DNA from: a virus
Length of the DNA: 37,774 bases
IMG/VR virus record: IMGVR_UViG_3300037119_002477
Span: 1 to 37,774 of that record
Direction: 5' to 3' (one strand)
This document shows, piece by piece, positions 7,892 through 25,164 of this stretch. Position 1 is the stretch's first letter. The number at the start of each line of letters is the position of its first letter. A model generated the notes under the pieces. It saw nothing but the letters and a program-made list of their open reading frames with translations. It was not told the origin of the DNA and did no database searches. The position numbers were made by a program, and so were the translations under genes.

Positions 7892-7944
7892 GCGTGGCAA
7901 TCGGCCCGAGGCGAACCGTTTTCGCTTCACCGAGGATCAACCCC

Positions 7945-8814
7945 ATGTCTGTCCCCGTCTCCGCCTGGTATCAAAACGCATACATCAAGGGCGCGACCCA
8001 TGTGCTGCAATCCAAGGGCTGGATGCTGAAAGGCACATTCCGCGAACCCGATCGCATTCTCGGCAAGACCGCCTATTGGCGCATTGCCGGCATGGCCGAA
8101 GCCCGCGAAATGTCGCCGGCGATCGAGCAGCTCACCCCGATGAATCTCGACCGATCCACCGTCAACGCCGTGATCAAGGATTGGCAGGCTGCGGATTGGA
8201 TCCGTCACCCCGACATCAACACCATGTCGGAGAACGAGCAGGAGGTGACGCAAAAATCCGCCGCGATGGCGCTGGGCCGGCGCTTTGACCGGACCGTCAT
8301 TCTCGGTCTCGACGCCGACACCAACATTCCGACGATCGGCAACGGTACGGCGGCGATCTCGATCCTCGACGTGATCACAGGCGCGGGCCAAATCATGGGC
8401 TCGGGCTGGGTCGATGAACTCGAACTGTTCTGCGCCCTGCCGCAAGTCATGTGGAACCAGCTCCTGCTGTACCGCGAATTTTCGAGCTCGGACTATAACG
8501 GGCCGGAATATCCGCTGAGCAAAATGACCACGGCGAAAAAGTTCGGATTCGTGACCTACTTCCTGGTCCCCGACTCCGTGCTGACCGCGCCGGCCGCCAA
8601 CCAGCTCGACGCCTATATGTGGGCCAAATCGGCGATCGGCTTTGCGACGAACTACGAGATGCAAAGCCGCATCACCTGGGAGAACCTCTACACGGCCTAT
8701 CTGGCGAACAACTGGATGCCGGCCGCGTCAGTGCCGATTCTCGGCGGCGCGACGGGCGCAATCCGGCGCCTGCGCTTTTCCACCAACACAGCGCTGACCC
8801 GGCCGACGCCGTAA
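7945..8814 (+). CDS. Major capsid protein
   Basis: A protein of 289 residues. ATG at 7945 is preserved by GAGG nine bases upstream; in-frame starts further upstream (7894) encode an Arg/Pro-rich stretch unlike the protein and lack a ribosome site. The sequence shows the pattern of podovirus coat proteins: an N-terminal arm, an extended helical region (SENEQEVTQKSAAMALGRRFDRTVILGLDAD), a strand/loop region, a helix ending ALPQVMWNQLLLYREFSS, and the C-terminal DAYMWAKSAIGFATNYEMQSRITW. The family is thought to have the HK97 fold. It lies after the scaffold and before a small head protein, as in BPP-1-type phages. It should be the most abundant virion protein. Confidence 0.85.
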   Translation: MSVPVSAWYQNAYIKGATHVLQSKGWMLKGTFREPDRILGKTAYWRIAGMAEAREMSPAIEQLTPMNLDRSTVNAVIKDWQAADWIRHPDINTMSENEQEVTQKSAAMALGRRFDRTVILGLDADTNIPTIGNGTAAISILDVITGAGQIMGSGWVDELELFCALPQVMWNQLLLYREFSSSDYNGPEYPLSKMTTAKKFGFVTYFLVPDSVLTAPAANQLDAYMWAKSAIGFATNYEMQSRITWENLYTAYLANNWMPAASVPILGGATGAIRRLRFSTNTALTRPTP

Positions 8815-9176: not shown

Positions 9177-9797
9177 ATGCCGGACGCCCGTATCCAGATC
9201 GCCAATGCCGCGCTCGCCAAAATCGGCTCGCGCGATATGCAGAGCTGGGACGAGGACACCGAGCGGGCAAGAGCCGTGGTCATCTCGTATGACCTGGTGA
9301 AGGGCGCGTGCTTTGGCCATCCGCATCGCTGGCGCTTTGCCACGCGCACCTTCAAACTCAATCAGCTTGCCGAGACCATCGACGGCTGGCGCTACGCCTA
9401 TGAGCGTCCCGGCGTCGCCTTGAGCGCGCCGCTGCGCGTCATGGGCGCCGCGAAGGATCCGCGCCACCCGCTGCGCGATTTCGATGACGCCGGCAATCGC
9501 CTCTATGCGAACGAGCCGGAGATCTGGGCGAGTTACATCTGCGACGTCGACCCGGAATTTTGGCCCGGCAGTTTCAAGAATTTGTTTGTCACCGCGCTGG
9601 CGGCCGAGCTCGCCATCCCCGAGGCGCAGGACGCCAATCTCTTCGATGCGTTTACGACCGTCGCCTGGGGCGGCCCGCAGGAATTGCGGCTCGGCGGCCT
9701 GGTGCGGGTGGCGATCAATGCCGACATTTCCGGAGGGCCTATGTTGTCGACGCCGGTGGATCCGGATCCGCTGACATCGGCGCGCTTCACATGGTAG
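9177..9797 (+). CDS. Tail tubular protein A (head-tail adaptor)
   Basis: A 206-residue protein. The N-terminus (IQIANAALAKIGSRDMQSWDEDTERARAV...YDLVKGACFGHPHRWRFATR) is the classic T7 gp11-like pattern, in which a helix pair is followed by a 'HPW.FA..R' segment. The C-terminal part continues with WPGSFKNLFVTALAAELA, a helix typical of the family. This protein sits below the portal and forms the upper ring of the short tail. AAAGGA is well placed before the ATG. The stop overlaps the next start by seven bases (ATGGTAG), indicating coupling to tail tubular protein B. Confidence 0.88.
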   Translation: MPDARIQIANAALAKIGSRDMQSWDEDTERARAVVISYDLVKGACFGHPHRWRFATRTFKLNQLAETIDGWRYAYERPGVALSAPLRVMGAAKDPRHPLRDFDDAGNRLYANEPEIWASYICDVDPEFWPGSFKNLFVTALAAELAIPEAQDANLFDAFTTVAWGGPQELRLGGLVRVAINADISGGPMLSTPVDPDPLTSARFTW

Positions 9798-12232
9798 CGA
9801 AACCGGGCGCCATTCAATACTCATGGAACGCCGGCGAACTCGAGCCCGGCGCGGCCGGGCGGGCCGACATCAAGCAATATTACGCCGCGGCCAAAGAAAT
9901 GACGAATGTCGAGCCGCGCCCGCAAGGCGGTTTTCGCTTGCTGCCGCGCTCGAGAGACATCGCCTATGTCAGGGGCGGACTGGAAGCTGTCGAGCCAACC
10001 AGCGTCGTCACCGATCCTGGACCGTTCGCCGGACCGGCGACCGTCATCCAGCTCAATTTCACGGCGCCGGAAACCGTGATCCTGGTCGATATCCTGAATT
10101 ATTTCACCAGCTATCCGGGGAATCTGGTCGATAATCTGCAAATCCAGTGGCTCGATGGCGCGGCCTGGCAAGCCTATTCGCCGGCCTTCGATGTGAGCAA
10201 TGTCACGCAAAATCGCCGCTTCGCCAAAACGCCGGGTTCGCCGATCACCACCACCAGCTTGCGCTTGCAATATCTCGGCGGCGACACCGCGGGCCATACG
10301 TTTTCCGTCGCTGGCATCTACGTCTATCGCGACGCCGGCCTGGGGCCAGGAACGTTCGGCAGACAATTCGCCTTCAATGTCTCGGCGACCGACGCATATA
10401 CGCTGATCGTCACCCCAGGAAACGGCGACATTTTCAAAGGCCCGGCCTATGTCGGCTCGGTCTCTCTGCCCTACTCGACGCAAGCCCAGATCAATGAATT
10501 GCGCCGCACGCAACGGCTCGAGACGCTGTTTTTGTGGCACAAGGATTTTCCGCCCTATCGCATTGTGCGCGTCACCGCCGACTCGGAATGGGAATCGGAA
10601 CCGGTGCCGTTCACCAACATGCCGGAAGTGGATTATGGCGGGTCTTACACCAAGACGAATGACATCTGGCGCCTGAACATCACCTGGTCGGAAGGCGACG
10701 GCTCCGGCATCTGGGTCAATACATCGGTCAATGGCGAGGATTGCGAGGCGCTCTATACCGCCGACGCCGCCTTCACCGGCTTTACCGCGGCGCTGGCGGC
10801 GGCGATCCATGAGCTGCCCAGCGTCGAGGATACCGGCGTTGTCGTCAGCGATCTCTATGGCGGCGCCACCTTCCACTGGTTCCAGATTGAATTTAGCGGG
10901 GCCAACGCCGGCAAGCGCTTCGCCATGACGGCGCGCGCCCAGGGCGGAACCGGCATCGTCGGCGCCAGCATGACCCACCAGCAATTCGGCGACGTCGGCG
11001 GCGAGCCGTTGGAAAGTGCATCCCGCGGTTACGCATCATGCGGGTGCTTCAATGAAGATCGGCTCTGGCAAGGCGGCTTTCGCTCGAAACCCGGCGCCAT
11101 GCTGGCGTCGGTCACGGCGGAGTATTTCGATCTCAATGACGAGATTGAATCGGCGAGCTCGGCCGTGCTGATCAATTTGGATCAGGACGGGGCCGACGAA
11201 ATTCAACACCTGGTCAATTCGCGCTTCCTGACCATCTTCACCAGCTCGGCCGAATATTACGTCTCGACCCGGCCGGTATCGCGCCAGCAACCCATCAACA
11301 TCGTCAATTCCTCACGCTATGGCAGCGCGCGTTATATTCCGCCGGTCGATCAGGAAGGGTCGCTGCTCTACGTCAATGCGGCCCGCACCATCGTTTATGC
11401 CGCGACCTATTCGGATATGTCGCAAGTCATCGAAAGCCAGCCCGTGTCGTTGCTCGCCTCGCATCTGGTGCAGGGCGTCGCCGCCGTCGGCTTGCAGAAA
11501 AGCTCGATCTCCACCGCGGCCGACCGCTATTGGATGGCGCGCGGCATCGAGGGCGCGACCGCCGCGATCCTGATTCGCGGCCAGGAGGTTGCGGCCTTCG
11601 TGCGCTGGCGGACGGACGGCGACGTGCTCGATGTCTCGGTCGACGGGCTCAATCGCTGTTCGATGATCGTGCTGCGCACGATCGGCGGGGTGCAGCGCGC
11701 CTGTTACGAAATCCTCGAGGACGGGTTGCTGCTCGATCAGGCATTCACCCAAACCTTCGGCGCGGCGACGACCGTGGTGGCCGGCCTGCAGCGCCTCGAG
11801 GGCGCAACGGTGTGGGCGATCGCCGACGGATTTCCGGACGGGCCGTTCGTGGTCGCCGAAGGAACCATCACCTTGCATTGGCCCTCGACCGTCGTGACCG
11901 TCGGACGCTGGACGGCGCCGCGGGCCGAAACCTTGTCGCCGACAAGGCTTGTCGCGGAGCGCACGCAAGTCAAAAAGCCGCAGCGCATCGCCGCAGTGCG
12001 CGGCGAATTGAATGGCACGCAATCCCTGGCGATCGCCGCCAATGGCGGGCCGGTCGAAGATGTGCCGCTGAGCGCTTGGGGCGGCGCGACCGATCTGGCC
12101 GGCATCGCCCCGAAATTCGGCCCGTTTGAAAAAACCGGCATCCGCGGCTTTTCCAACGGGGGAACCGTCCTGTTTACCCAGCTCCGTCCTGGCGCGCTCG
12201 ACCTGCGCGACATCACGGTCGAAGCGAAGTGA
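9791..12232 (+). CDS. Tail tubular protein B (tail nozzle)
   Basis: An 813-residue protein starting at ATG 9791. The same frame is open further upstream, but that part is the shadow of the tubular protein A gene. The size matches T7 gp12-like nozzle proteins. The family start is visible: an 'IQYSWNAGELEPGAAGRADIKQYY' type segment, then GGFRLLPRSRDIAYV. Beta-rich repeated modules follow, and a C-terminal GNGG-type strand region ends near ALDLRDITVEAK. Six copies should form the tail tube tip through which internal proteins and DNA leave. It is followed seven bases later by the internal virion genes. Confidence 0.88.
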   Translation: MVAKPGAIQYSWNAGELEPGAAGRADIKQYYAAAKEMTNVEPRPQGGFRLLPRSRDIAYVRGGLEAVEPTSVVTDPGPFAGPATVIQLNFTAPETVILVDILNYFTSYPGNLVDNLQIQWLDGAAWQAYSPAFDVSNVTQNRRFAKTPGSPITTTSLRLQYLGGDTAGHTFSVAGIYVYRDAGLGPGTFGRQFAFNVSATDAYTLIVTPGNGDIFKGPAYVGSVSLPYSTQAQINELRRTQRLETLFLWHKDFPPYRIVRVTADSEWESEPVPFTNMPEVDYGGSYTKTNDIWRLNITWSEGDGSGIWVNTSVNGEDCEALYTADAAFTGFTAALAAAIHELPSVEDTGVVVSDLYGGATFHWFQIEFSGANAGKRFAMTARAQGGTGIVGASMTHQQFGDVGGEPLESASRGYASCGCFNEDRLWQGGFRSKPGAMLASVTAEYFDLNDEIESASSAVLINLDQDGADEIQHLVNSRFLTIFTSSAEYYVSTRPVSRQQPINIVNSSRYGSARYIPPVDQEGSLLYVNAARTIVYAATYSDMSQVIESQPVSLLASHLVQGVAAVGLQKSSISTAADRYWMARGIEGATAAILIRGQEVAAFVRWRTDGDVLDVSVDGLNRCSMIVLRTIGGVQRACYEILEDGLLLDQAFTQTFGAATTVVAGLQRLEGATVWAIADGFPDGPFVVAEGTITLHWPSTVVTVGRWTAPRAETLSPTRLVAERTQVKKPQRIAAVRGELNGTQSLAIAANGGPVEDVPLSAWGGATDLAGIAPKFGPFEKTGIRGFSNGGTVLFTQLRPGALDLRDITVEAK

Positions 12233-12239
12233 GGCTGAC

Positions 12240-12854
12240 ATGGAACTCGCCGCCGCCGCCCTAACCTCCGTCGCCGGCGCGATCGGATCGATTTTTTCCA
12301 CCGCGGCGCCCGCCGCAACCACCGCTGTCGCGGGCGCCGCTCCGGCTGTCGCCGGCGCGATTGGCGCGGCGGCGCCGGTTGCGGCGACGAGCTCGTTCGG
12401 CTGGGGTTCGATCCTCTCCGGCGTGCTCTCGGGCGGCGCGTCGCTCGCCGGCATCATGGGGGCGCAGGCGTCAGCCGCCGAAAAGGCGACGGCCTACGAG
12501 CTCGCGGCCCAGGACGCCGAGGCCGAAATCCCCACCGAAATGCTCAAAGGGACGGAAAAGCGGACATCGATGCGGCGCAGCTTGTTGCAGACGTTCGGCG
12601 AGCGCGACGTCGCCTTCGCCGCGTCCGGCCTGGACATTTCGTTTGGCACGCCGGCGCTGGCCCGCGACGAGGCGGAAGAGGACGCCGAGCGCGCGATCGG
12701 CATCGACACGCAAAGCCAGGAACAGAAGCAAACGAGGCTGCTCGAGAAGGCGGCCAACCTCCGCGCCCAGGGCGGGGCGGCGAAACAGGTCGGATTCTAT
12801 AAATCGCTTGGGCTCGGCCTCGACACCACGGCCCGCTTCCTGCGGCGGGGTTAA
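12240..12854 (+). CDS. Internal virion protein, gp14-like
   Basis: A 204-residue protein. The first 85 residues are a very hydrophobic Ala/Gly-rich region with several potential membrane-spanning stretches. An amphipathic helical part follows (KATAYELAAQDAEAEI), then SMRRSLLQTFGERDVAFAASGLDISFGTPALARDEAE and a basic end. This organisation and position, first of the internal core genes, match T7 gp14-like proteins. Those are ejected from the head and form a pore in the outer membrane. The ATG at 12240 follows AGGCTG; the same frame is open upstream but overlaps the tail tubular gene. Confidence 0.7.
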   Translation: MELAAAALTSVAGAIGSIFSTAAPAATTAVAGAAPAVAGAIGAAAPVAATSSFGWGSILSGVLSGGASLAGIMGAQASAAEKATAYELAAQDAEAEIPTEMLKGTEKRTSMRRSLLQTFGERDVAFAASGLDISFGTPALARDEAEEDAERAIGIDTQSQEQKQTRLLEKAANLRAQGGAAKQVGFYKSLGLGLDTTARFLRRG

Positions 12855-12857
12855 GCG

Positions 12858-15749
12858 ATGGCCAACAAGCGCGCCAATCAGCTCAATGTCTCGGATCCGG
12901 AATACCGGCCCACCATGCCGGAGCCGTTGGCGGCGATAACGCGACCACAGGGCGAAGTCGGCGACGCGATCTACAAGGCAAGCGATGAGCTCGCGACGCG
13001 GGCGAACAAGATCGCCGATGAGTTCGCCAAGATCGAAGGCGCAAGGGCGGGGCAGATCGCCGGCGTGGATGAGAAATGGCGCCCGAATGATTCAACCACC
13101 ATCCGCGGCACAGCCTTTGAGGAGGCCGCAACCACCACCTACACCAACATGCTGGAAGCGAATCTCGATCGCGACATGCGAACCGCGGCGGTCGAATTGC
13201 GCGATAGTCCGGGCGCGCTCACCAAGAAGCTCGATGAAATCAAAGCCGACTATATGCAGCGGCACGTGTTCCCGCAGATCAGGGGACAGTTTGAAACCAA
13301 ATTCGAGCGCACCCGAACCTTTTTGACGGTCGATTCGCTGCAATTGCAAAAGACCAGGACCGAGGAAGCGGCGCGCGCCTCGTCCATCCCGCGGCGCGAT
13401 GCGCTCGACAATCAGCGCAATGACATTCTCGACATGCCGGACGGTCCGGAGAAGGACAAATTACTCGAGGAAAACGATAAGGAGCGCAAACGGACCTACG
13501 AGAACGACGTCAAGAATGGCGGCAGCGCGGTCGACGCGGCCCGCAGCTATTCAAAGGATCAAGAGAACAACGAAATTTTGCGCGTCATGAAGGCGCCGGC
13601 GAAAATCGAGGATCCCGAAGATTACAAGACCGCGGCGACCGCGGCGCTCGAGCAGGCGCGAAGACGCGGCGCGATGTCGCCGGAGACGATTTTCAAGATC
13701 GAGCAGCAAATCGAGGCCGGCTACCGCACCCGGCAAAGCCGCACCGAACACAGCGAGGCCAAGGTCGCGGCTAACATGGATGCGCTGCGGGTGCGCGCCG
13801 CCGAGGGCGCGATCATTCCGGAGGCCGAAAAGCAGACGCTGCGGCTGGCGGCGAAAACCCCGAAGGAAAAGCAGATCGTCGAGGACGGCCTGGCCAAGGC
13901 CGAGGAACTGGCGATCCTGGCGAAAAAGACGCCGGCGCAACTCGACGCCGAAATCGCCAGGCTGCGCGAGAAAGCCCAGGCCCAGGCCGGCGCGAGCGCC
14001 ACCGACGTGCAGCTTTTGAAGGACGCCGAAGTAGTCCGCAAGCACAAGGAGCAAAGCGACGCCGAGCGCGTCCGGAAAATCGAGGCGGGCGAAACCAAGG
14101 TGAAGGAGGGGGTCGATGCGCTGCGCGATCGGTCGGCCGCCAATCAGCCGATCCCCGAGGCCGAAAAGCAGGCGCTGCGTGACAAGGCGAAAACCCCGAA
14201 GGAAAAGGCGCTGGTCGAGGACGGGCTGAAAAAGGCCGAGGAATTGCGCACCCTCTCGGCGAAGTCGCCGGCCGAAATCGACCAGGAGCTCGCGCGCCTG
14301 CAGAAGAAGGCGCAGGAGGGCGGCGCGACGCCGGCCGACAAGCAACTGTTTGATGATCTGATGGCGGTCAAAAAGGCCAAGGAGGCCGGCGCGGCCGAAC
14401 AGGAGCGGCGGGTCAAGGCCGGCGAAACCAAGGTCGAGAAGGTCGTCAAGGATTTCGAGGAACGCGGCAAAGCCGGCCTGCCGATTTCCGACGCGGAAAA
14501 GCAGGCGGCGCTGGCGACGGCGACCACGCCGCGCGAAAAGCAATTGATCATGGCCGGCATCATGCGCGCGGACAATCTGCGCAAGATGGCGGAAATGTCG
14601 CCCGAGCAATTGGACGCCGAAGAGCGCGCCATTCGCGAGCGCGCCAGAAAAACCGGCGCCTCAAGCGCCGAGACGGCGAGGCTGATCGCCGACCTGACCG
14701 AAACCAGGGACGCGCGCAAAAAGGTGCTCGAGAAGGATCCGGTCTCCGATGCGATAAGGACGCGCCAGGTCGATGTCGGGCCGCTCAATCTCAGCCTGGC
14801 GCACAGCGACGCCCCGGACGATAAGACGATGCTCGAGGCGCAATTGCGGGCGCGCAAGCCGATGGACAAATTTACGGAGCAACACGGCGCGCCGGACCGG
14901 AAATTGACCGATACGGAAGTCGCCCAGGGCAAACAGATTTACGAGCGCGGCGGCAAGCCGGCATTCAATCTCGTGACCGCGATCGTCAAAGTCTTTGGCG
15001 ACAAGGCCGGGCCTGTGCTCGAGGAAATCGGCGGCCAGCAAATGAAGGGCGTTGGCGGCCTGGCGATCCTGCCCGGGCCGCCGGAAGCGCGGCACCCGGT
15101 GATCAAGGATGCGGTCAACGGCCAGATGAAATTGAACGACAAGGAGATCAAAGGCAAACTGCCGGCGGAGCCGGACAACCGCGAGGAAATCTTTCGGACC
15201 GAGTTCGGCACCGCGATGAGCGGCGCCGACAAGGCCCGCGTCCAGCAAACCGCATTTCAGATCTACACCGAGCGCGCCTACCGAGCCGGCGTCACCAAGG
15301 ACGACGACAAGGCCAAGGAGATTTACAGGGAAGCGCTGCGCGCCGCGGCCGGCAAGGCGACGATGCCGAGCGGCAATTCGTTCGGCGGGCCGGCGAGCTA
15401 TCAGCCGGGCGGCACCTGGTTTCGCCGAACCACGACCTGGAGTCAGAAAACCATCGTGCCGCCGAATATCCGGACGGACAAATTTCGCGATGTGATCGAC
15501 TCGATCACGGATGCCGATCTCACGGAGTTTAAGCACGAGGACGGCCGGGCGGTGAAGGCCGACGACTTGAAAGAGGCGACGCCGGTCAGAACGCCGAAGG
15601 GCTATATTTTCGTGCGCGGCGATCCGGCGTCGGAGGAGAGTCCCGTAATCGGCGACGTCAAAGGCGGCAAGCCGGTCGTGATTGATTTCGACAAGAAGGA
15701 AGTCGAGCAAAAGTATCGCGACCGCGTGCCCAAGGCGTACACGCCATGA
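12858..15749 (+). CDS. Internal virion protein, gp15-like, with three tandem ~111-residue repeats
   Basis: A 963-residue, highly charged, almost wholly helical protein. Residues about 300-628 consist of three tandem copies of a segment of roughly 111 residues. Each contains an 'EAEKQ.L...A.TPKEKQ' helix, a 'KAEEL..L..KSPA..D.E.ARL..KA' helix and a spacer ending in 'KAGETKV'; the third copy is the most diverged. A C-terminal part (about 660-963) is less charged and more globular. The position between the gp14-like and the giant internal protein matches T7 gp15, an inner core and periplasmic tube protein. The repeats suggest a rod whose length is set by copy number. Start just after the previous stop; end overlaps the next gene (ATGA). 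Confidence 0.75.
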   Translation: MANKRANQLNVSDPEYRPTMPEPLAAITRPQGEVGDAIYKASDELATRANKIADEFAKIEGARAGQIAGVDEKWRPNDSTTIRGTAFEEAATTTYTNMLEANLDRDMRTAAVELRDSPGALTKKLDEIKADYMQRHVFPQIRGQFETKFERTRTFLTVDSLQLQKTRTEEAARASSIPRRDALDNQRNDILDMPDGPEKDKLLEENDKERKRTYENDVKNGGSAVDAARSYSKDQENNEILRVMKAPAKIEDPEDYKTAATAALEQARRRGAMSPETIFKIEQQIEAGYRTRQSRTEHSEAKVAANMDALRVRAAEGAIIPEAEKQTLRLAAKTPKEKQIVEDGLAKAEELAILAKKTPAQLDAEIARLREKAQAQAGASATDVQLLKDAEVVRKHKEQSDAERVRKIEAGETKVKEGVDALRDRSAANQPIPEAEKQALRDKAKTPKEKALVEDGLKKAEELRTLSAKSPAEIDQELARLQKKAQEGGATPADKQLFDDLMAVKKAKEAGAAEQERRVKAGETKVEKVVKDFEERGKAGLPISDAEKQAALATATTPREKQLIMAGIMRADNLRKMAEMSPEQLDAEERAIRERARKTGASSAETARLIADLTETRDARKKVLEKDPVSDAIRTRQVDVGPLNLSLAHSDAPDDKTMLEAQLRARKPMDKFTEQHGAPDRKLTDTEVAQGKQIYERGGKPAFNLVTAIVKVFGDKAGPVLEEIGGQQMKGVGGLAILPGPPEARHPVIKDAVNGQMKLNDKEIKGKLPAEPDNREEIFRTEFGTAMSGADKARVQQTAFQIYTERAYRAGVTKDDDKAKEIYREALRAAAGKATMPSGNSFGGPASYQPGGTWFRRTTTWSQKTIVPPNIRTDKFRDVIDSITDADLTEFKHEDGRAVKADDLKEATPVRTPKGYIFVRGDPASEESPVIGDVKGGKPVVIDFDKKEVEQKYRDRVPKAYTP

Positions 15750-18700
15750 GCACCGGCTTCGCCGCGCGCGCCGGGGTCGTTGAGAGAGCATTCGATCCCG
15801 AAGGCGCAGACTACGATTACGAAGGCGCGAAGGCGGCCGGCATCACGCCGGACGAAACTGGCCATTGGGCCTCGCGCGATCCCAAATCGGGCCTGATCCT
15901 CAAGGGCCGCGGCCACGAGACTTTTGAAAAGACGATGAAGGGCGAGGAGGAGGCGGGCTTCCAGATCGTCAAAAAAGGCGAGCGCTATTATTCCTTTCCG
16001 AAGGACCAGGCCGCCGCCGCTCCCGCCGCCGATGATGAGGAACCGCTGCCCGAGCTCGCCGGCCGCAGAGGCACGACCCGCGCTGATTTTGAAACCGTCT
16101 CGAGCCGCATCGCGCAAGGCGAATCGTTCGATGAGGCGGCGACCGGCTTTCGTTTGTTTCATCCCGAAGTCAGGGAAAAGCGCATGCGGGAACGCGCCGC
16201 CAGCGATACTCAGACGCTCGGCCTGTTTCGCGCCAGCGCGGCGCAGCAGGAAGCCACCGAGCGCGTCATGGCCGACGACAATTTGCGCGCGGATTATTTC
16301 AATACGTTGATCCGCAAGGCCGAGGAGCAGTTCGGCGTCAAGCTCGAGAACCCGACGCGCGGCGGCTACGGTACGGAGGCGCGGAAACTCTACATGGAAA
16401 TGAGCCGCCAGCGCCGGGCGGCGATGCTGCGCGGCGACAAGATCGAAGGCGATCTGCCGCTCGTGCCGGAATTGCGCGAGCAGATCTTCAATCGGGAATT
16501 AAACAAGGCGATCGAAAGCCGGCCGGAGCTCGGCGACCTGGCGGCCGAGGTTCAGATCCAGATGAACCCGCATTTGCAGCGGCGCGCCAGGGAGCAGGAG
16601 CTCGAGCTTCGCCAGGCCGAGGCGGGGCCGATCAAGAGCATGGCGGTCGGGCTTGGCGCGGGAATCTGGACCACGATGCGCGATCCGGTCGAGGGGCCGC
16701 TCAACGCCGTCGTCACCGTCGCCACCGGCGGCGCGTCGCCCGGCGTCCGCATGTTGAGCGCGATCGTCGGCGAAGGGCTGACCAATGTCGGCATCACAGC
16801 CCTGACCTTGCCGCAGATCATCGAGCGCCGAAATGTTTCCGGCATCAAAGCGCCCGGCGGCGGGGCCGAGGTGGCGATGGAACTCGTCACCGCTTTTTTA
16901 ATCGGCGGCTCGATCGGCGGCGCGGTCCAGGGTGTGCGCGAAATGTTCGGGACCGCCGTCCGTTCGATGGCGCTCCCGGCCAATGTCCAGGCGGACATTG
17001 AGGCGAGCATCGCCGGGATTGTGCGCAACGTCGCCGGCGAGGGCCTGCCGCCGGATCTGCACACCGTGGCGCGGTCGCTGTCGCCGGTCCTGGACGAAGG
17101 AACCCAAAAGGAATTGGCGGCGATCCTGCGCACGCTCGAGATCGAGCAGGCGGCCGAAGCGCCGCCGGGCGTCAACCCGCAAACGCACGACATCACGCTG
17201 GGCGCCGCGGTGCGGCACGCCGAGGATCCCGAGGCGACGATCGCGCCGGCGCCGCTGCCGCGGCCGGCGGATTGGGCGGCCGACGACGCGGAAGTGCGCG
17301 CCGCCATCCCGCCCAATGCGACGCTCGAGCAAGCGCTCGCGCCGCTCATCGCCGACGGCCGCCTGGCCTATCTCGCCGCCACCAGCCGGTCGCTGGAGCT
17401 CGAAGCGCTCGGTCGCATCGCCCTGATGGACGAGCGCGCGGCGGCCTTTGCGGTCAATGGGCAAGTGCCAGTCGACCAGGTGGCGCGCGTCTCGGCCCTG
17501 GTCGGCGCGCCGGAGGATCAAATTCTCGTCCTGCAATCGCTGGCCCGCGATGGCGTCGGGACGCTCGAGCAAGTCTCCGAGCGCGTCGCCGCCGAGCTCG
17601 GCGCGACGAAAATCCGCGACGTGGTGCAGACGCTGCTGCCGACGCCCGAGAGGGTGACCGAGATCGCGCCGGCAGAGCCGTCAGGAGGGCCGCCCGTTGC
17701 GAAGACGGAGGCGGGGACGCCCGGAACACCCGCGGCCGGCGAAGCCACGCCTGGCGCATCCCAGGCGGTTCCAGAGGCATCGGCCACAGCGGCGACGGAA
17801 ATCCCGCCGCCGGTCAAACCGATCCGGAGCGCGGCCGACACGCCAGCGCTGAAAGCCGAGCAACCGGCGCGATCGATCGATGAGCTCTATGTTGTCGCGC
17901 CGACGCATCAGAACGAGCTCGGCATGGTTGGGGCGGAGATTGCCGCGGCGACCGGCGCCCGGTTCAAGAACCCGGGCGTGAAGGAAAAGGAAACCACGCG
18001 CCAAAAAATGGTCCGCAAGGACTATCGATCGACCCAGGAATTAACCGACGTGGTGCGGGCCGGCTTCCTGGTCGACGTGCCGAACCAGGGCGACGCCATC
18101 GTGGCGCGCCTCGCCGCCAAATACCCGATTCTCGATGAGGGCTGGAATTTCACCGCGGAGGGATATTTCGACCGCAAGGTGCTGGTGCAATTCGATGACG
18201 GGACGATCGGCGAAATCCAGATTTGGGAGCCGAACCTGTTCAACGCCAAAACCAAGCAGGGCGGCCACGACATGTATACCGAGTCGCGCGCGCTGCCCTT
18301 GGATAATCCGCGCCGGATCTCGCTCGATGAGCAAATGCGAGCGCTCTATGGCGGGGCGCTGGCGAAAGCGACGCCGGAATTTCAGGCGATGATGGATCAG
18401 GGCCGCATGTTGTCGCCGGGCGGCGTTTCCACTGGTTCATCGATCGGCACCGTCACCGCGGGAAACCGCGCGGCGAACGTCTCGACGGTCAGCCAACGGC
18501 CGGACTCGCAGACTTCCACCGGATCGACGGCCTTGGGATCTTCGCCCGGCCTCAGAATGAATGCAGAGGCGTCGGAGCCAATTACGGCCGCGCGCCCTTC
18601 CCAATCAACCAGTTTCACGGAAACCTCCGTTTCTAATCTAGATACGGTTGCCGCTTCTGTCGAGACGCCGGAGGCGCGGCAGGCGGTCGCACGCGTCGAC

Positions 18701-20149
18701 GCGGTCAACCAGCTCAAGGAAGTGCCAGCCTATACGCCGGAAACCGCGCCGCCGCCATCGCCCGGCGAAATGGCCGGCGTGTTCATGTTCGATCCGGCCA
18801 AGCTCAAAGTCGACGCCCAGCGCTTCCAGTTCAAGGAGGAAAGCGACGCCGAAGGGGTGAGCACCCGCCTGCGCGGCGTCACCAAATGGGATCCGGCCAA
18901 GGCCGGGCAATTGATCGTTTGGGAAGCCAAGGACGGGACGCTCTATGTCGCGGACGGCCACCAGCGCACCGGCCTGGCGCGGCGCCTGCAACGCGAGGGC
19001 AAGGTCGGCGACATCGAAATGACCGGCGCGCTCTATCGCGAAACCGACGGCTATTCCCCCGGCGACGTCAAGGCGCTGGCGGCTTTGGTCAATATCTCGC
19101 AAGGCACCGGCTCGGCCCTCGACATCGCCCATGTGCTGCGCAAGCGCCCGGGGGCGCTGGACGAGTCGGTTCCGCTGACCGCCGGCGCCGCCCGCCAGGG
19201 CGCGAACCTGGCCAAGCTCGAGGACGAGCCGTTCCGCATGATCGTCAACAAGGTCATTCCGGAACATTATGGCGCGATCGTCGGCGAGCTCTTGCCGGGC
19301 GACGCGGCCCGCCAGGCCGACGCGATCAAGCAGATCGCCTCGCTCGAGCCGCGCAACGTCAATGAAGCGACCTATCTGGTGCAGCGCGTGCGCGAGTCGG
19401 AAATGCAGCGCGCCGCCGACGCCAGCCAAATGACGTTTCTGGACGATACGCCGGGATCGACGGTCGGCGAGGAAATGCGGATCTTCAACAAGGTCAAGGG
19501 AGAATTGGAAAAGGATAAGACCCTGTTCAAGCGCGTGCTTGCCAATGCCGGACGGATTGAGGAAACAGGGTCGACCATCGCCCGCCCCGAAGCCGAAACC
19601 ATGCTGACCGAATCGGCGCTCGCGGCGAAACTGTTGGAGTCAGGCTTCACGTCGGGGCCGGTGCGCGAGGCGATCAAGGAGGCCGCGACCAATGTCAAAG
19701 CAGGCAACCAAACCCTCGCCGGAGCAACGCGCGACGTTCTCGGGGTTGTCCGACGAGAGGCTGAAACAAATGTTCCGGGAGGGCGCGGCCCTGGCGGAGG
19801 CGTTCAAACGCCTGGATCAGCGCTTACAGAACCCACCGCAGCCGGCGAGCAAACGCTCATCCCCGGCGTCGAACCCGTCACCAACCAAGACCGCATAGCC
19901 GCCCGCGCCGCCGAGCCGATGCGGGGCGGCGCCGAGCCGCTGCCCGCCGGCGGGCTCGATGATTATGACGCGATCAACCAGACCAACCTGTTTGATACGG
20001 GCAAGCCCTTCGAGACCAACGACCTCGCGCAAGCGAAGCCGGTCGCGGCGCCCGACGGCACGGTGCGGCTGTCGACGCCGGAGGACGTCAAGGCCGAGCT
20101 CGAGCGGCCGGCGCACCTCACCGACGTCGTGAAATCCTGCAAGGAGTAG
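15746..20149 (+). CDS. Giant internal virion polyvalent protein: RelA/SpoT-like and ddrB/ParB-like domains
   Basis: A 1467-residue protein. Residues 1-290 are charged and helical. Residues about 298-395 are a long hydrophobic, Gly/Ala-rich stretch suited to membrane passage. Residues 712-886 resemble a RelA/SpoT-type nucleotidyltransferase fold: ELTDVVRAGFLVD, EGYFDRKVLVQF, then GEIQIWEP and GHDMYTESRAL, the usual order of that family's landmarks. Residues about 993-1320 look like the ddrB-type ParB/sulfiredoxin-fold domain, with QRFQFK, KWDPAKAG and VADGHQRTGLA (DGHQR at 1070-1074). Linkers are Pro/Ser/Thr-rich. Such multidomain proteins are known as polyvalent proteins, injected with phage or plasmid DNA to deal with host defences. 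Whether the RelA/SpoT-like domain is active is unknown. The protein replaces T7 gp16 in gene order. Confidence 0.75.
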   Translation: MSTGFAARAGVVERAFDPEGADYDYEGAKAAGITPDETGHWASRDPKSGLILKGRGHETFEKTMKGEEEAGFQIVKKGERYYSFPKDQAAAAPAADDEEPLPELAGRRGTTRADFETVSSRIAQGESFDEAATGFRLFHPEVREKRMRERAASDTQTLGLFRASAAQQEATERVMADDNLRADYFNTLIRKAEEQFGVKLENPTRGGYGTEARKLYMEMSRQRRAAMLRGDKIEGDLPLVPELREQIFNRELNKAIESRPELGDLAAEVQIQMNPHLQRRAREQELELRQAEAGPIKSMAVGLGAGIWTTMRDPVEGPLNAVVTVATGGASPGVRMLSAIVGEGLTNVGITALTLPQIIERRNVSGIKAPGGGAEVAMELVTAFLIGGSIGGAVQGVREMFGTAVRSMALPANVQADIEASIAGIVRNVAGEGLPPDLHTVARSLSPVLDEGTQKELAAILRTLEIEQAAEAPPGVNPQTHDITLGAAVRHAEDPEATIAPAPLPRPADWAADDAEVRAAIPPNATLEQALAPLIADGRLAYLAATSRSLELEALGRIALMDERAAAFAVNGQVPVDQVARVSALVGAPEDQILVLQSLARDGVGTLEQVSERVAAELGATKIRDVVQTLLPTPERVTEIAPAEPSGGPPVAKTEAGTPGTPAAGEATPGASQAVPEASATAATEIPPPVKPIRSAADTPALKAEQPARSIDELYVVAPTHQNELGMVGAEIAAATGARFKNPGVKEKETTRQKMVRKDYRSTQELTDVVRAGFLVDVPNQGDAIVARLAAKYPILDEGWNFTAEGYFDRKVLVQFDDGTIGEIQIWEPNLFNAKTKQGGHDMYTESRALPLDNPRRISLDEQMRALYGGALAKATPEFQAMMDQGRMLSPGGVSTGSSIGTVTAGNRAANVSTVSQRPDSQTSTGSTALGSSPGLRMNAEASEPITAARPSQSTSFTETSVSNLDTVAASVETPEARQAVARVDAVNQLKEVPAYTPETAPPPSPGEMAGVFMFDPAKLKVDAQRFQFKEESDAEGVSTRLRGVTKWDPAKAGQLIVWEAKDGTLYVADGHQRTGLARRLQREGKVGDIEMTGALYRETDGYSPGDVKALAALVNISQGTGSALDIAHVLRKRPGALDESVPLTAGAARQGANLAKLEDEPFRMIVNKVIPEHYGAIVGELLPGDAARQADAIKQIASLEPRNVNEATYLVQRVRESEMQRAADASQMTFLDDTPGSTVGEEMRIFNKVKGELEKDKTLFKRVLANAGRIEETGSTIARPEAETMLTESALAAKLLESGFTSGPVREAIKEAATNVKAGNQTLAGATRDVLGVVRREAETNVPGGRGPGGGVQTPGSALTEPTAAGEQTLIPGVEPVTNQDRIAARAAEPMRGGAEPLPAGGLDDYDAINQTNLFDTGKPFETNDLAQAKPVAAPDGTVRLSTPEDVKAELERPAHLTDVVKSCKE
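19692..19898 (+). CDS. Possible overprinted small gene inside the polyvalent protein gene
   Basis: A 68-codon frame lies in a different plus-strand frame within the giant gene. A perfect AAGGAGG (19676-19682) stands nine bases before its ATG. Third positions in this frame are mostly G/C, as in real genes here. The main frame over 19740-19850 is unusually poor in third-position G/C and encodes a Gly/Pro/Thr-rich linker. The product has one convincing helical part (LSDERLKQMFREGAALAEAFKRLDQRL) and a Pro/Ser-rich tail. I do not recognise a family. It could be a nested virion or regulatory peptide, or chance in a linker region. Confidence 0.4.
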   Translation: MSKQATKPSPEQRATFSGLSDERLKQMFREGAALAEAFKRLDQRLQNPPQPASKRSSPASNPSPTKTA

Positions 20150-20155
20150 CCCATC

Positions 20156-22780
20156 ATGGCGTTTGCCGACTGCATCGCCAACCTGGTCGCCGCCCAGGAA
20201 ATCACCCGGGCCGAAGCGCGGCGCCTGGTCGAAGCCTATGACGAGCTCGCGCGCGAGGCGCAACTCGCCGGTCACGCCGATCCGCGCGGCGCCGCCCGCA
20301 GCCAGTTGGCGCTCAACATCACGGCCGAAGGCGAGGAACAGAAACGCATCGCCCATCTGGCCGACGCGGCGCGGCACCGGATCCTGACGGACATTGCCGG
20401 CTATCGCGTCGGCGCCACCGGCGCGCCGATCGCCGCCCCGCCGTCGGGCGCCGCGGCGGCCGGAGTTCCCCCAGGCGCTGCCGGACCGCCCGCCGCGCCA
20501 GGCGGCACGCCGGGCGTGGTCGCAGCCCCAGGGCCAGCCGGCGGCATCACCCCGCCGGGCGTGCCTGACATCATGGAAGCGTCGATCCGTTTGCTCGAAC
20601 ATTACGGCTTCACCGGCTATAGTTCGGTCGAGGGCCGCTTCAAGGCGATCGTCGGATCCGTGCAAGCCAAGCTCGAGCAGGCGCTGACCCTGTTCGATCG
20701 CTCGGCGCTCGCCGGCACGCGGCGCGAACGGCCCCTGATGCAGGACGTGGTGCGCTCGCTGTTCGGCGAAAATGTTTCCGACATCCGGGCGCAGACGCTC
20801 GCGAAGCAATTCGAGACGGCGTTCGAGGATCTGCGCCTGCGCGCCAACGCGGCCGGCATGTCGATCGGCAAGCTCACCGGCTTCGGCCTGCCGCAAAGCC
20901 ACGATCCGGCGGCGATCATCTCGGCCGGGCGCGATCAGTGGAAACAATTCATCACGCCCCTGCTCGATCGCCAGCGCATGCGCGACCCGCTGACCGGCGC
21001 CGTCATGTCGGACACGCGGCTGTCGGCCGCGCTCGACGTCGCCTACAAGCGCATCGTTTCTGATGGCTCCTATGGCGTCGCGCCGTCGATCGCGACGCAA
21101 GGCCAAGGCCCGTTGTGGAAACAGCGCGCGGAACATCGCTTTTTACATTTTAAAGACGCCGATTCCTGGATGCAGTACGCGACCGCGTTCGCGCAGCCGG
21201 ATCCGTTTGCGACGGCGATGCTGCATGTCAAGGGCATGGCGCGCGACATCGCGGCGATGGAAATACTCGGGCCGAATCCCGACGCGACGATCCACTGGCT
21301 CAAAGGCGTGATCGAAGCCGAGCGCGCCAAATTCCTCGCCGGCGAAACCTCACTCTATCGCGCGAGCTCGACCAACCAGGCGTTCGACAAGGCCGGCCTG
21401 GCGGATTGGCGGCTCGATTCGCTCTGGTCGCAAATCAGCGGCGGCGAAATTGTGTCGGGAAAAGTCGCCATGGGGTTCGCCACGGTGCGCAATCTCATCA
21501 CTTCGGCGGCGCTCGGCTCGACTGCGATCAGCGCGATCGCGACGGATCCGGCGATCGGCAATATCGCCAAGCGATTGTCCGGCATGCCGACGCGCTTCTG
21601 GGTGACGGAAATGGTGCGAACGGTATTCGGCGGCCTATCGCGGCCCGAAGCCATCCGCGCCGGCCTGGTGCTCGAGGACGCCTTGCACCTCGTCGGCGAG
21701 GAAGCCCGGTTCGCCGGCACGCAAGGCGGCGCCACCTGGGCGCGCTGGGCGTCCGATCGGGTGCTGACCTGGTCCGGCCTGACGCCCTGGACGCAGGCCC
21801 GCAAGCATATTTTTGGCACAGATTTTCAGGGGTTCATGGCGGACCAGGCGCAAAAGACCTGGGCCGATCTGCCGCCGCTGATCAAGCGCACCATGAACGG
21901 CTATGGGATTTCGCCGGCGGATTGGGACGCGATGCGCGCCGCGCCGCTCTATACCGTCGGCGGTTCCGCCGGGCTGTTGCGGCCGGCCGAAATCGAGCGC
22001 GTCGCCGGGCGCGAGGTCGCCGAGCGCTATCTTGAAATGATCCTGTCCGAAACCGAGCGGGCCGTCCCGTCCGGCACCAAGCGCAGCAAGGCGCTGATGG
22101 CGGTCGGCGGTCGCGGTACGATCATGGGCGAAGTGGCGCAGGGCGCCTTACAGTTCAAAGCCTTTGGCCTGTCGATGATGACGTTGCAGCTCGAGGCGAT
22201 CCGCCAGGAGCTCGGCCGCGGCGCGGTCCAGGGCGCGGCCTATATCGGGGCGCTGGCGATCTCGACCACGCTCGGCGGCGCCATCGCGGTGCAGCTCCGC
22301 GACATGATTGCCGGCAAGGATCCGCAGGACGTCTCGGATCCAAAATTCTGGTTGAAGGCGGCGCAGACCGGCGGCGGCTTTGGCATCTTTGGCGACTTCC
22401 TGTTCGCCGACGCCAACCGATTGGGCTATTCGATCGGCGAAACCCTGATGGGGCCGACGATCAATTTCGTCAACGACATCGCGAAAATCCCGCTTGGCGC
22501 TTTTCAGAAGCTGGCGGACGACGAAGAGACGTCGGTGATGAAACAGACGATCGCCGCGTTCCGGCGCTACACGCCAGGGGCGTCCCTCTGGTATCTGCGC
22601 GCCGGCTGGAACCGCGTCATCATGGATCAACTGGAATATTTGACGGATCCGCAGGCCCACAAGGCGATGCGGCGGCGCGAGAAGCGATTGCAAAGCACGA
22701 CCGGCCAGGAGTTTTTCTGGCGGCCTGGCCAGGTCGCGCCGGGCCGCGCGCCGGATCTCGGGGCGGCCTGGCCGCAATGA
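20156..22780 (+). CDS. Internal virion protein (podovirus core protein family)
   Basis: An 874-residue protein. Residues 1-90 are helical and charged; residues about 85-140 are a Pro/Ala/Gly linker. The large C-terminal part contains a segment common in podovirus core proteins (HRFLHFKDADSWMQYATAF...MLHVKGMARDIAAMEILGPNP). Hydrophobic stretches near residues 440-465 and 695-720 could insert in membranes. The last residues are basic (HKAMRRREKRLQS). It follows the polyvalent protein and precedes the fibres, so it completes the ejected core. AAGGAG in the end of the upstream gene serves as the ribosome site. A muralytic motif was not found, so cell-wall cutting during entry is not assigned. Confidence 0.7.
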   Translation: MAFADCIANLVAAQEITRAEARRLVEAYDELAREAQLAGHADPRGAARSQLALNITAEGEEQKRIAHLADAARHRILTDIAGYRVGATGAPIAAPPSGAAAAGVPPGAAGPPAAPGGTPGVVAAPGPAGGITPPGVPDIMEASIRLLEHYGFTGYSSVEGRFKAIVGSVQAKLEQALTLFDRSALAGTRRERPLMQDVVRSLFGENVSDIRAQTLAKQFETAFEDLRLRANAAGMSIGKLTGFGLPQSHDPAAIISAGRDQWKQFITPLLDRQRMRDPLTGAVMSDTRLSAALDVAYKRIVSDGSYGVAPSIATQGQGPLWKQRAEHRFLHFKDADSWMQYATAFAQPDPFATAMLHVKGMARDIAAMEILGPNPDATIHWLKGVIEAERAKFLAGETSLYRASSTNQAFDKAGLADWRLDSLWSQISGGEIVSGKVAMGFATVRNLITSAALGSTAISAIATDPAIGNIAKRLSGMPTRFWVTEMVRTVFGGLSRPEAIRAGLVLEDALHLVGEEARFAGTQGGATWARWASDRVLTWSGLTPWTQARKHIFGTDFQGFMADQAQKTWADLPPLIKRTMNGYGISPADWDAMRAAPLYTVGGSAGLLRPAEIERVAGREVAERYLEMILSETERAVPSGTKRSKALMAVGGRGTIMGEVAQGALQFKAFGLSMMTLQLEAIRQELGRGAVQGAAYIGALAISTTLGGAIAVQLRDMIAGKDPQDVSDPKFWLKAAQTGGGFGIFGDFLFADANRLGYSIGETLMGPTINFVNDIAKIPLGAFQKLADDEETSVMKQTIAAFRRYTPGASLWYLRAGWNRVIMDQLEYLTDPQAHKAMRRREKRLQSTTGQEFFWRPGQVAPGRAPDLGAAWPQ

Positions 22781-22842: not shown

Positions 22843-25164
22843 ATGGGCAGCACCTATCCGATTCCGCGCCAGGTTCGCCGCACGGAGTATCTGGCGACGG
22901 ACGGCCAGACCTTGTTCGGGCCGGCGAATTTTAAGGCGTTCGATCTGCTCGACGTCGGGGTTTATCGCAAGGCGGTCGGCGCCGACGTGTTCACCCGGCA
23001 AAATGGTTTGCCGGGCGTCGTCATCACGCTTGCCGCCGCGGCGCCGGCGGCGCCGAGCGTCACCTTTACGCCCGGCCTGACGGCGGGCGAAGAAGTGCGC
23101 GTCCAGGGCGAGCGCCTGCATGAGCGGCAATTCGACGTCACGCGCGCCGGCGTCATCGCCTCGGCCTCGCTCGAGGACGAGCTTGATAAGCAAACCGTCA
23201 TCCTGCAGGAGCTCCGCCGCGATTGTAATGAGTTCGGCGGGCTCGAGGATTTGCTCGAGGAAGTGCTCGAGGCGATCGAGGACGCTGCGGTCGGCATTCC
23301 GGCGGACGATTCCGTCACCAATCAAAAGCTGCGCGACTCGGTCGGGCTCTCGGTCATTGGCCGCGCGGTCAATTCAACCGGCGATCCGGCCGACATTGTC
23401 GCCGCGACCGACGGCGACGTGTTGCAGCGCGTCGGGACGCAATTGAAATTCGCGCCGCCGGTGAGCGGCGCCGTGAGCTCGACCTTGTTCGCCGCGCGCG
23501 CGATCGTCGCCGCCGCGACCATTCCGGCGCCCGTCCTGGCGATCAACACCGCGGGCTACTATGTCGCCGGCGACGGCGGCCAGGCGCTTTACAAGCGCGT
23601 CGGCGCGGATCCTGGCCACGCCGGCAAAGTGCAATCGGCGGATGGCGCCTGGTGGGAAATCGCGCCGGACACCATCGGCGTCAATTTCCGCCAGTTCGGC
23701 GCCAAGGGCGACAGCGTCACTGATGATCGCGCCGCTTGTCAGAGCTGCATCGATTTTGCGCAGCCGCGCAATCTCACGATCATCATTCCGGACGGCGGGT
23801 TCGCGCTCGGCGAAGTCACCACCCCTCTCAATTATTGCTTGAAGCTCAACGGCTGGTCGCATGTGCGCGGCGTCGGCATCGGCTCGCGCCTCATTCCAAT
23901 GGCCGGCGTCAGCGCGACGACGTCGTGCATCTGGCTTGAGCCGCAGGGCGGCGTCTCGCTGTTTGAGTGCGGCGATTTCCAGATTGTCGGCGGTCATGGC
24001 GGCGCGGTGCAGCGCCAGGGCGAGCATGGCATTCTGATTGACACGCGCACCACCGGCAACACGCTGCAAAAACCGATCTTGGAAAATCTCAACATCGGGC
24101 AGGGCTATCACGACGCGACGTCGCCGACGCTGCCCCGCGCGGGCCACGCGATCTTTCACTACAATGATCAAAGCAAGAATCCGGAAGGCGGCATGTTCGG
24201 CGGATTGATCCGCGATTGCCGCGGGCTCGGCGGCGGCGTGCGCCTCTATCAAACCGGCGATCAAAACATCATTCAGAATTGCATCATGTATGGCGAGAAC
24301 AACGACACGATCGGCTACAAGTCGCGCGGCGTGTGGGTGGAGACCTGCACCTCGGACGGCGGCGCCGGCTTCTTCACGATGGAAAACCTGACCATCGTCA
24401 ACAAGGGCGGCGGGTTCCAGATTGACTATGCCGTGAATTTCGAGGCCGAAGGCGTCTATTGCGAATGCTTCGGCGCCGGCGTCGGCTTGCCCTATACGCG
24501 CACCGTTGACGGCAGCGCCGGCCGCGCGCTGGCAATCGTCAATTCGCTGGGGACGACCATCGGCTCGGGTTACATTCAGGGCTGCCGCTTTGCGCCGCAA
24601 GGCGGCGTCTCGACATTGTTGACGTCTAACCTCTACATCGGCAACGCACAGAATATCGTGGTCGAGGATGACAATTCGTTTTACGCGGCGAAGCCAGGCG
24701 CGTTTGCGGTCGAGCTCGACACCAATTCGTTCCGCTGCAAAGTCGGCGACATCAAAACCATAGACTATTCCGGCGCCGGATTTCGCATCGTCGATAACGG
24801 GACGTTCAACGCCTACAATCAAGTTCTGATCGTGACGCCGTTGTCCGGCTTCGCCAATGTTCCCGGCTTCGCCGAATTGCAGGCGAGGCGAAATGATTCG
24901 GGCTCAGTCAAGCTCGCCGGTCGGCTCGGTCATGCCGGCGCGGGGTCCGGCACCATCTTCGCCACCTTGCAAGCGCGCTGGCGGCCGCCGGAAAACCAGA
25001 CCTTCCCCATCTATGCGGTCGCCGGCGCGGTCATCCCGGCTGGCGTCACCGTCGGGGCGGATGGCAATTGCACCTATTATGGCGCAACGGTGACGCAGTT
25101 GGATGTGAGCAGCATCGAGTTCATGGCAGCGCCGGCGCTCATCTCATTGGTGGCGGAACAATGA
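22843..25164 (+). CDS. Tailspike with pectate-lyase-like beta-helix
   Basis: A 773-residue protein; start chosen at 22843 because GGAGAG lies nine bases upstream, whereas the upstream in-frame ATG (22807) has none. Residues 1-120 form the tail-anchoring domain, resembling the N-terminal domain of T7 gp17-type fibres; it is closely repeated in the next gene. A short coiled coil follows. From about residue 232 comes INTAGYYVAGDGGQALYKR, then NFRQFGAKGDSVTDDRAACQ, the signature start of a pectate-lyase-superfamily right-handed beta-helix, running to about 660. Such trimeric spikes bind or cut surface polysaccharide. The substrate and catalytic residues cannot be told from sequence. The stop overlaps the next start (ATGA). 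Confidence 0.88.
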   Translation: MGSTYPIPRQVRRTEYLATDGQTLFGPANFKAFDLLDVGVYRKAVGADVFTRQNGLPGVVITLAAAAPAAPSVTFTPGLTAGEEVRVQGERLHERQFDVTRAGVIASASLEDELDKQTVILQELRRDCNEFGGLEDLLEEVLEAIEDAAVGIPADDSVTNQKLRDSVGLSVIGRAVNSTGDPADIVAATDGDVLQRVGTQLKFAPPVSGAVSSTLFAARAIVAAATIPAPVLAINTAGYYVAGDGGQALYKRVGADPGHAGKVQSADGAWWEIAPDTIGVNFRQFGAKGDSVTDDRAACQSCIDFAQPRNLTIIIPDGGFALGEVTTPLNYCLKLNGWSHVRGVGIGSRLIPMAGVSATTSCIWLEPQGGVSLFECGDFQIVGGHGGAVQRQGEHGILIDTRTTGNTLQKPILENLNIGQGYHDATSPTLPRAGHAIFHYNDQSKNPEGGMFGGLIRDCRGLGGGVRLYQTGDQNIIQNCIMYGENNDTIGYKSRGVWVETCTSDGGAGFFTMENLTIVNKGGGFQIDYAVNFEAEGVYCECFGAGVGLPYTRTVDGSAGRALAIVNSLGTTIGSGYIQGCRFAPQGGVSTLLTSNLYIGNAQNIVVEDDNSFYAAKPGAFAVELDTNSFRCKVGDIKTIDYSGAGFRIVDNGTFNAYNQVLIVTPLSGFANVPGFAELQARRNDSGSVKLAGRLGHAGAGSGTIFATLQARWRPPENQTFPIYAVAGAVIPAGVTVGADGNCTYYGATVTQLDVSSIEFMAAPALISLVAEQ

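Follow-up and report, generated by a model that had tools for sequence, protein, structure and literature searches.

A predicted alarmone synthetase within a candidate podovirus ejection protein, in a gene slot where relatives exchange toxin domains

Here, we describe a viral protein that combines a predicted alarmone synthetase with a ParB-like domain and a hydrophobic module, and whose gene occupies the position of epsilon15 gp16 in a podovirus structural block. The DNA analyzed (IMG/VR record IMGVR_UViG_3300037119_002477; 37,774 nucleotides, referred to as the window) had been read previously from its letters and open reading frames, and this sequence-only reading proposed an injected polyvalent protein. 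We consider it moderately probable that the product is an epsilon15 gp16-type ejection protein with a built-in effector cassette, which would be ejected and make an alarmone in the host early in infection. Related phages carry interchangeable effector cassettes in the same slot, a point that the sequence-only reading missed. We give slightly better than even chances to the broader proposal that, across a large podovirus group, the epsilon15 gp16 slot is a delivery cassette site at which synthetase, Zeta-type kinase, ADP-ribosyltransferase, RNase, and acetyltransferase are swapped within the ejected protein, forming an immunity-free polymorphic virion effector system.

The gene (positions 15746 to 20149, + strand; P0001) is one intact open reading frame of 1467 aa running from ATG to TAG. 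Its ATG overlaps the stop codon of the preceding 963-aa gene, and 7 bases separate its end from the next gene. This frame and every landmark previously named in it are present, far beyond chance: D768 and R771 lie in ELTDVVRAG, E823 and Q825 in GEIQIW, G840 and Y844 in GHDMY, and D1070 in VADGHQRTG. The hydrophobic stretch, earlier placed at residues 298 to 395, spans approximately residues 300 to 405 (16643 to 16960), has Kyte-Doolittle maxima at 337 to 355 and 376 to 394, and is probably membrane inserting. The protein begins with a GHW module of ∼70 aa (residues 11 to 90; 15776 to 16015) that is 67%, 59%, and 55% identical to its counterparts in loci L003, L004, and L005, respectively. Elsewhere, this module occurs in small stand-alone open reading frames and at the N termini of giant phage proteins (L004, L006, and L007; L003, L005, L014, and L016).

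Sequence, profile, and fold comparisons and invariant residues all assign residues 703 to 886 (17852 to 18403) to a predicted RSH alarmone synthetase (SYNTH) domain of the Tas1/Apk1-RelV type, with predicted enzymatic activity. A Pfam search of the whole 1467-aa protein returned no match, and PF04607 (RelA_SpoT) had none in the window; 19 of 45 relatives matched PF04607 at E<0.1. Pfam failed because the protein is too diverged, so profile and fold evidence was used instead, and the missing PF04607 match limits the Pfam label only, leaving the fold and homology results unaffected. Relatives were found stepwise, L002 first and then two Photobacterium genes; an alignment of all these led to 34 loci in genomes and 34 contigs of viruses. 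When residues 685 to 888 were compared with PDB sequences using phmmer, Tas1 (6ox6) was the sole match (E=2.2e-5), and a profile of 27 phage homologues matched Tas1 at 8.5e-17 and a Streptomyces exported synthetase at 2.6e-4. The designed protein 3lg7 (PDB, E 0.04) was rejected as a synthetase relative, being a helix match, and matches of the synthetase stretch to Sibilus and Cornix in a phage collection (E ∼1) were discarded as chance. An AlphaFold2 model of the domain, built from a 45-sequence alignment, reached a pLDDT of 93.1 and a pTM of 0.88, and its top Foldseek matches were RSH synthetases: Tas1 (E=2e-8, probability 1.0), followed by SaEAS, RelQ, RelP, and Rel. The sequence-only reading had made residues 712 to 886 RelA/SpoT-like; structure prediction, used to check for an unrelated fold, returned that of an RSH synthetase, and together with the Tas1 sequence and profile matches, it supports the assignment. 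As a separate observation, two RelV-like synthetase genes lie adjacent to each other in Photobacterium genomes (L019:4785-5585 and L019:5742-6629).

Across 46 phage sequences, K746, D768, R771, D797, Y807, D809, E823, Q825, and K835 are invariant and K754 is nearly so. SaEAS residues D121, R124, E182, and Q184 (numbering from PMC12691689), equated by motif, correspond to D768, R771, E823, and Q825. The synthetase domain evolves under purifying selection, with dN/dS values of 0.07 to 0.21 across seven close pairs.

The window carries portal, capsid, tail tube, tail spike, tail fiber, and lysis genes and a weak internal virion protein match. Preceding P0001 on the + strand are the portal (head-tail connector; 4987 to 6588; PF12236, E 2.5e-64), the major capsid protein (7894 to 8814; PF19821, E 3.5e-44), a tail tube B-like protein whose real start is probably 3' of its listed one (9560 to 12232; phrog_376, E 4e-83), and a gp14-like small internal virion protein with an uncertain start codon (12126 to 12854; 42% identity to the L020 neighbor and a weak match to phrog_418, E 0.002). 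The 963-aa large internal protein (12858 to 15749, +) is assigned to the epsilon15 gp15 slot by position and by weak similarity to its L070 and L020 equivalents, and it matched Piluca_046 at E=0.07. The gene that follows P0001 (20156 to 22780, +) encodes a virion protein like epsilon15 gp17, phiV10 p20, and phiVC8 p19 (phrog_684, E 1e-147; 28% identity to phiV10 p20, E 2e-65), and this identity places P0001 in the slot of epsilon15 gp16, phiV10 p19, and phiVC8 p18. The slot gene likewise adjoins the gp17-like gene on its 5' side in a synteny table of ∼25 loci and in a gp17-based survey of 76 loci. Farther along the window, the tail fiber (25068 to 28934) matches Spherulin4 (PF12138, E 2e-31) and ends in a Peptidase_S74 chaperone. 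Dunaliella viridis virus SI2 (L017; HQ332136), whose host label of a green alga is doubtful, likewise has a block of podophage structural genes in synteny with the window.

An iterated HMM seeded with phiVC8 p18 matched residues 300 to 405 of P0001 (E 3e-18) and no shuffled control, and it gave 87 matches at E<1e-3 in a search set holding 92 slot proteins. These profile matches indicate that the hydrophobic module is homologous between P0001, phiVC8 p18, and most slot proteins. The same HMM found no sequence match to the module in phiV10 p19 (epsilon15 gp16); thus, the epsilon15 gp16 identity is positional, and we rely on epsilon15 for gene order alone. The C-terminal tail of P0001 (residues 1426 to 1467; 20021 to 20146) ends in SCKE and is matched modestly by a tail HMM (E 0.0013); its C1465 (20138 to 20140) is the sole cysteine of the protein. 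Of the 92 slot proteins, 89 have a cysteine among their final 12 residues, and in 70 it is at position −3. The gp17-like protein has an invariant N-terminal cysteine, C6 in the window (20171 to 20173), and a contact or disulfide between the two cysteines is possible.

The earlier placement of the gene among those for the podovirus internal core thus agrees with its position between gp15-like and gp17-like genes and with the shared hydrophobic module. In epsilon15, gp15 and gp17/16 belong to the injection device, as a recent paper states with reference to Guichard 2013 (PMC12391199), and podoviral ejection proteins exit the head ahead of the DNA (PMC8954989). Taking the gene slot and shared modules together, we infer with good reason that P0001 would be delivered at infection. 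A different account has the enzyme act mainly in the phage-producing cell, where alarmone made late would serve host shut-off, superinfection exclusion, or lysis timing and packaging would be incidental. The gene does lie in the late structural block, where we take it to be expressed, and no linked immunity gene was found. However, the carrier of the cassette always has the ejection-slot modules, for which a late cytoplasmic toxin would have no use, and toxic overproduction ahead of assembly would be costly to the phage, so that we regard this account as rather unlikely.

The G-loop in the window is GYFDRK (DxK) and differs from those of proven ppApp synthetases, which have GxN (PMC12226406), and of classical ppGpp synthetases, which have SxH. 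Among bacterial genes, the nearest ones recovered are RelV type and have signal peptides; such homologues in Vibrionaceae have the G-loop GYRDLK or GYRDLN, and tested RelV-type members produce ppGpp (PMC12691689). A supported branch in a tree of synthetase domains has the phage domains on one of its two sides, which distinguishes them from the exported synthetases RelV/VpEAS and SaEAS. Because GYFDRK differs from both GxN and SxH, while tested RelV-type enzymes make ppGpp, we lean only slightly toward ppGpp as the product. The active domain might instead target tRNA 3'-CCA ends in the manner of FaRel2/CapRel, blocking translation with no alarmone made, as other toxSAS enzymes of the same fold modify tRNA 3'-CCA (PMC11782079). 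This is improbable given that the closest solved relatives are Tas1, a ppApp synthetase, and SaEAS, which makes ppApp and ppGpp, and that the nearest bacterial genes belong to the RelV type, in which tested enzymes produce ppGpp.

The second recognizable domain, at residues 1012 to 1345 (18779 to 19780), consists of a ParB/Srx-type N-terminal part with DGHQR and a helical, DNA-binding-like part. This region matched phrog_10691 (E 1.3e-39) and the ParB-like phrog_1033 (E 0.005), as well as 18 relatives. Its AlphaFold2 model is of moderate quality (pLDDT 78, pTM 0.52) and matched Noc/ParB in Foldseek (E 4e-5, probability 1.0) with low TM-scores, pointing to a ParB/Noc-like fold within the ParB/Srx superfamily. 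The sequence-only reading had called the domain ddrB/ParB-like; the ParB-like half of that description holds and the ddrB half does not, as ddrB-ParB (PF18763) gave 0 matches at E<=10 in the window and hhalign against the true ddrB-ParB of sister phages gave a probability of 0.1%. True ddrB-ParB is combined with the same synthetase in four sister proteins (L054, L060, L021, and L022). The synthetase comes before the ParB domain in the window but after it in relatives whose ParB domain is of the same family. Single-sequence scans with the ParB part recovered no viral contig relative, whereas searches with a synthetase alignment and with a gp17-like alignment succeeded.

To survey the slot, a gp17-like profile scan yielded 551 viral relatives, of which the best 80 were kept. 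Among these best 80 of 551 were 72 nonredundant complete slot proteins: 18 carry the synthetase, 24 carry a second module, and 30 carry neither. In 16 of 16 representatives, this additional module proved to be a Zeta toxin kinase (E down to 1e-22), with a match to a PDB zeta toxin at E 1e-7. Over all 92 slot proteins, the synthetase occurs in 35, Zeta in at least 24, and both in 0; some contigs entered this larger set through the synthetase, which leaves the survey counts as the only ones free of that bias. The Zeta-toxin-type P-loop kinase stands in for the synthetase after ParB in L109, L125, L117, and others. Comparing L125 (Zeta) with L126 (synthetase), we found mostly 84 to 100% identity per 50-aa block over residues 51 to 700, 12 to 30% past residue 700 over the cassette, and near-identical tails. 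On a quick tree of the ParB domain, at least 11 switches between synthetase and Zeta are seen, with 9 per label forced by well-supported branches.

Other modules found in slot proteins are GNAT (L139), the nuclease PBECR1 (L122), a phage lysozyme (L098), a separate RelA_SpoT (L159), and, slightly under the curated cutoff, the ADP-ribosyltransferase ART-PolyVal (L087). The occurrence of Zeta toxin, ART, PBECR1, GNAT, and one lysozyme in this slot fits what would be expected of delivered effectors. In L055 (6587-10930), a single slot protein unites ParB-like, ART-PolyVal, and Tas1-like synthetase domains with a weak match to GNAT. The RelA_SpoT domains of L159 (4053-6590) and L160 exceed the Pfam cutoff, occupy this slot in proteins that lack the ParB part, and were apparently acquired independently.

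The L125/L126 swap and the 9 to 11 switches amount to a constant carrier with exchangeable toxin domains, as in polymorphic toxins. No linked immunity gene was found, the slot gene directly adjoins the gp17-like gene, and an HD_4 alarmone hydrolase sought in the window was absent. This search for immunity genes covered part of the small open reading frames elsewhere, and therefore we do not file the system as a classical polymorphic toxin. With neither an immunity gene nor a hydrolase found, cells that make the phage must have another means of withstanding the enzyme. The exchange also bears on whether the SYNTH domain is catalytically dead and instead has a structural or nucleotide-binding role in the ejection machine, or acts as a decoy to keep toxSAS regulators of the host occupied. 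Its G-loop has one substitution at the classical guanosine/adenosine positions (D809 and K811), but every metal- and ATP-binding position is invariant and the synthetase is swapped for unrelated enzymes, so its fold is not needed for assembly, and we hold such a role to be quite doubtful.

In the reading that we prefer, an ejection protein carrying an active synthetase, the constant hydrophobic module and C-terminal tail would place P0001 in the virion core beside the gp15-like and gp17-like proteins, and P0001 would be ejected together with the DNA. Once in the cytoplasm, the SYNTH domain would move pyrophosphate from ATP to a purine nucleotide, for which GDP/GTP or ATP are the likeliest candidates. 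A burst of alarmone, together with depletion of the purine pool, may then slow growth and transcription in the host as infection begins, or disable it for rivals or defense. The ParB-like domain is a probable binder of DNA or a nucleotide and may remain with the incoming genome. Exported synthetases reportedly turn over ∼1e5 per minute (PMC12691689), P22 injects ∼12 copies of gp16 (PMC8402733), and 1 mM nucleotide in 1 fL corresponds to ∼6e5 molecules; by this arithmetic, a few copies could convert the GTP pool in ∼1 minute. Ejection would require a 1467-aa protein to unfold and refold, which would count against this reading, as do the GYFDRK G-loop, the missing PF04607 match, the failure to find an immunity gene or alarmone hydrolase, and the lack of a hydrophobic-module match in phiV10 p19.

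RelA/SpoT domains have already been published in phage polyvalent proteins with DdrB-ParB (PMC5512222) and in MuF toxins (PMC5576092; PMC12226406). In the openly accessible literature, we found no account of alarmone synthetase and Zeta kinase replacing each other in the epsilon15 gp16 slot and nothing specific on an alarmone synthetase in ejected phage proteins, although this is weak evidence of absence. Interchangeable toxins at the same position in related phages suggest a general way to hit the host before phage genes turn on. If this is true, the DNA-channel proteins of short-tailed phages would double as a payload system for nucleotide-signaling and nucleotide-depleting enzymes delivered before phage transcription, the world of T6SS and MuF toxins would be linked to ejection proteins, and the large size variation of gp16-type proteins would be accounted for. 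Natural cassette exchanges such as L125/L126 separate carrier from cargo.

Among known systems, the T6SS ppApp synthetase Tas1/Apk1 of Pseudomonas aeruginosa (6OX6) is the best sequence and fold match, sharing the SYNTH fold, the motif order, and the D/R/E/Q active site; however, it is delivered by T6SS behind a PAAR domain, has a paired immunity protein, and has the G-loop GYSGVN rather than GYFDRK. RelV/VpEAS and SaEAS (PMC12691689) have a close SYNTH domain, and the GYxD G-loop is common to the window and the Vibrionaceae homologues. They are toxic in the cytoplasm and have no immunity gene, a likeness to the predicted synthetase of the window, but they are single-domain, Sec-secreted bacterial proteins. 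The Apk2 MuF polymorphic toxins of temperate phages (PMC12226406; PMC5576092) also join a phage virion protein to an RSH toxin domain as a proposed head passenger. Their carrier is a portal-associated MuF protein, mostly in siphophages, with a C-terminal toxin and linked immunity genes (iapK and aph1), whereas the window has a candidate ejection-protein carrier, an internal cassette, and no immunity gene found. The phage polyvalent proteins with RelA/SpoT and DdrB-ParB (Iyer 2017, PMC5512222) embody the same domain-pair concept, with a virion gene neighborhood and predicted injection; their RelA/SpoT cases come from Spirochaetes, epsilonproteobacterial prophages, and MuF proteins, and that paper has 0 mentions of zeta toxin and describes neither the Zeta exchange nor the epsilon15 gp16 slot. 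Epsilon15 gp16, phiV10 p19, and phiVC8 p18 differ in their length of 390 to 600 aa and in lacking an effector cassette, but they occupy the same slot before gp17 and have the cysteine-containing tail, and phiVC8 p18 shares the hydrophobic module.
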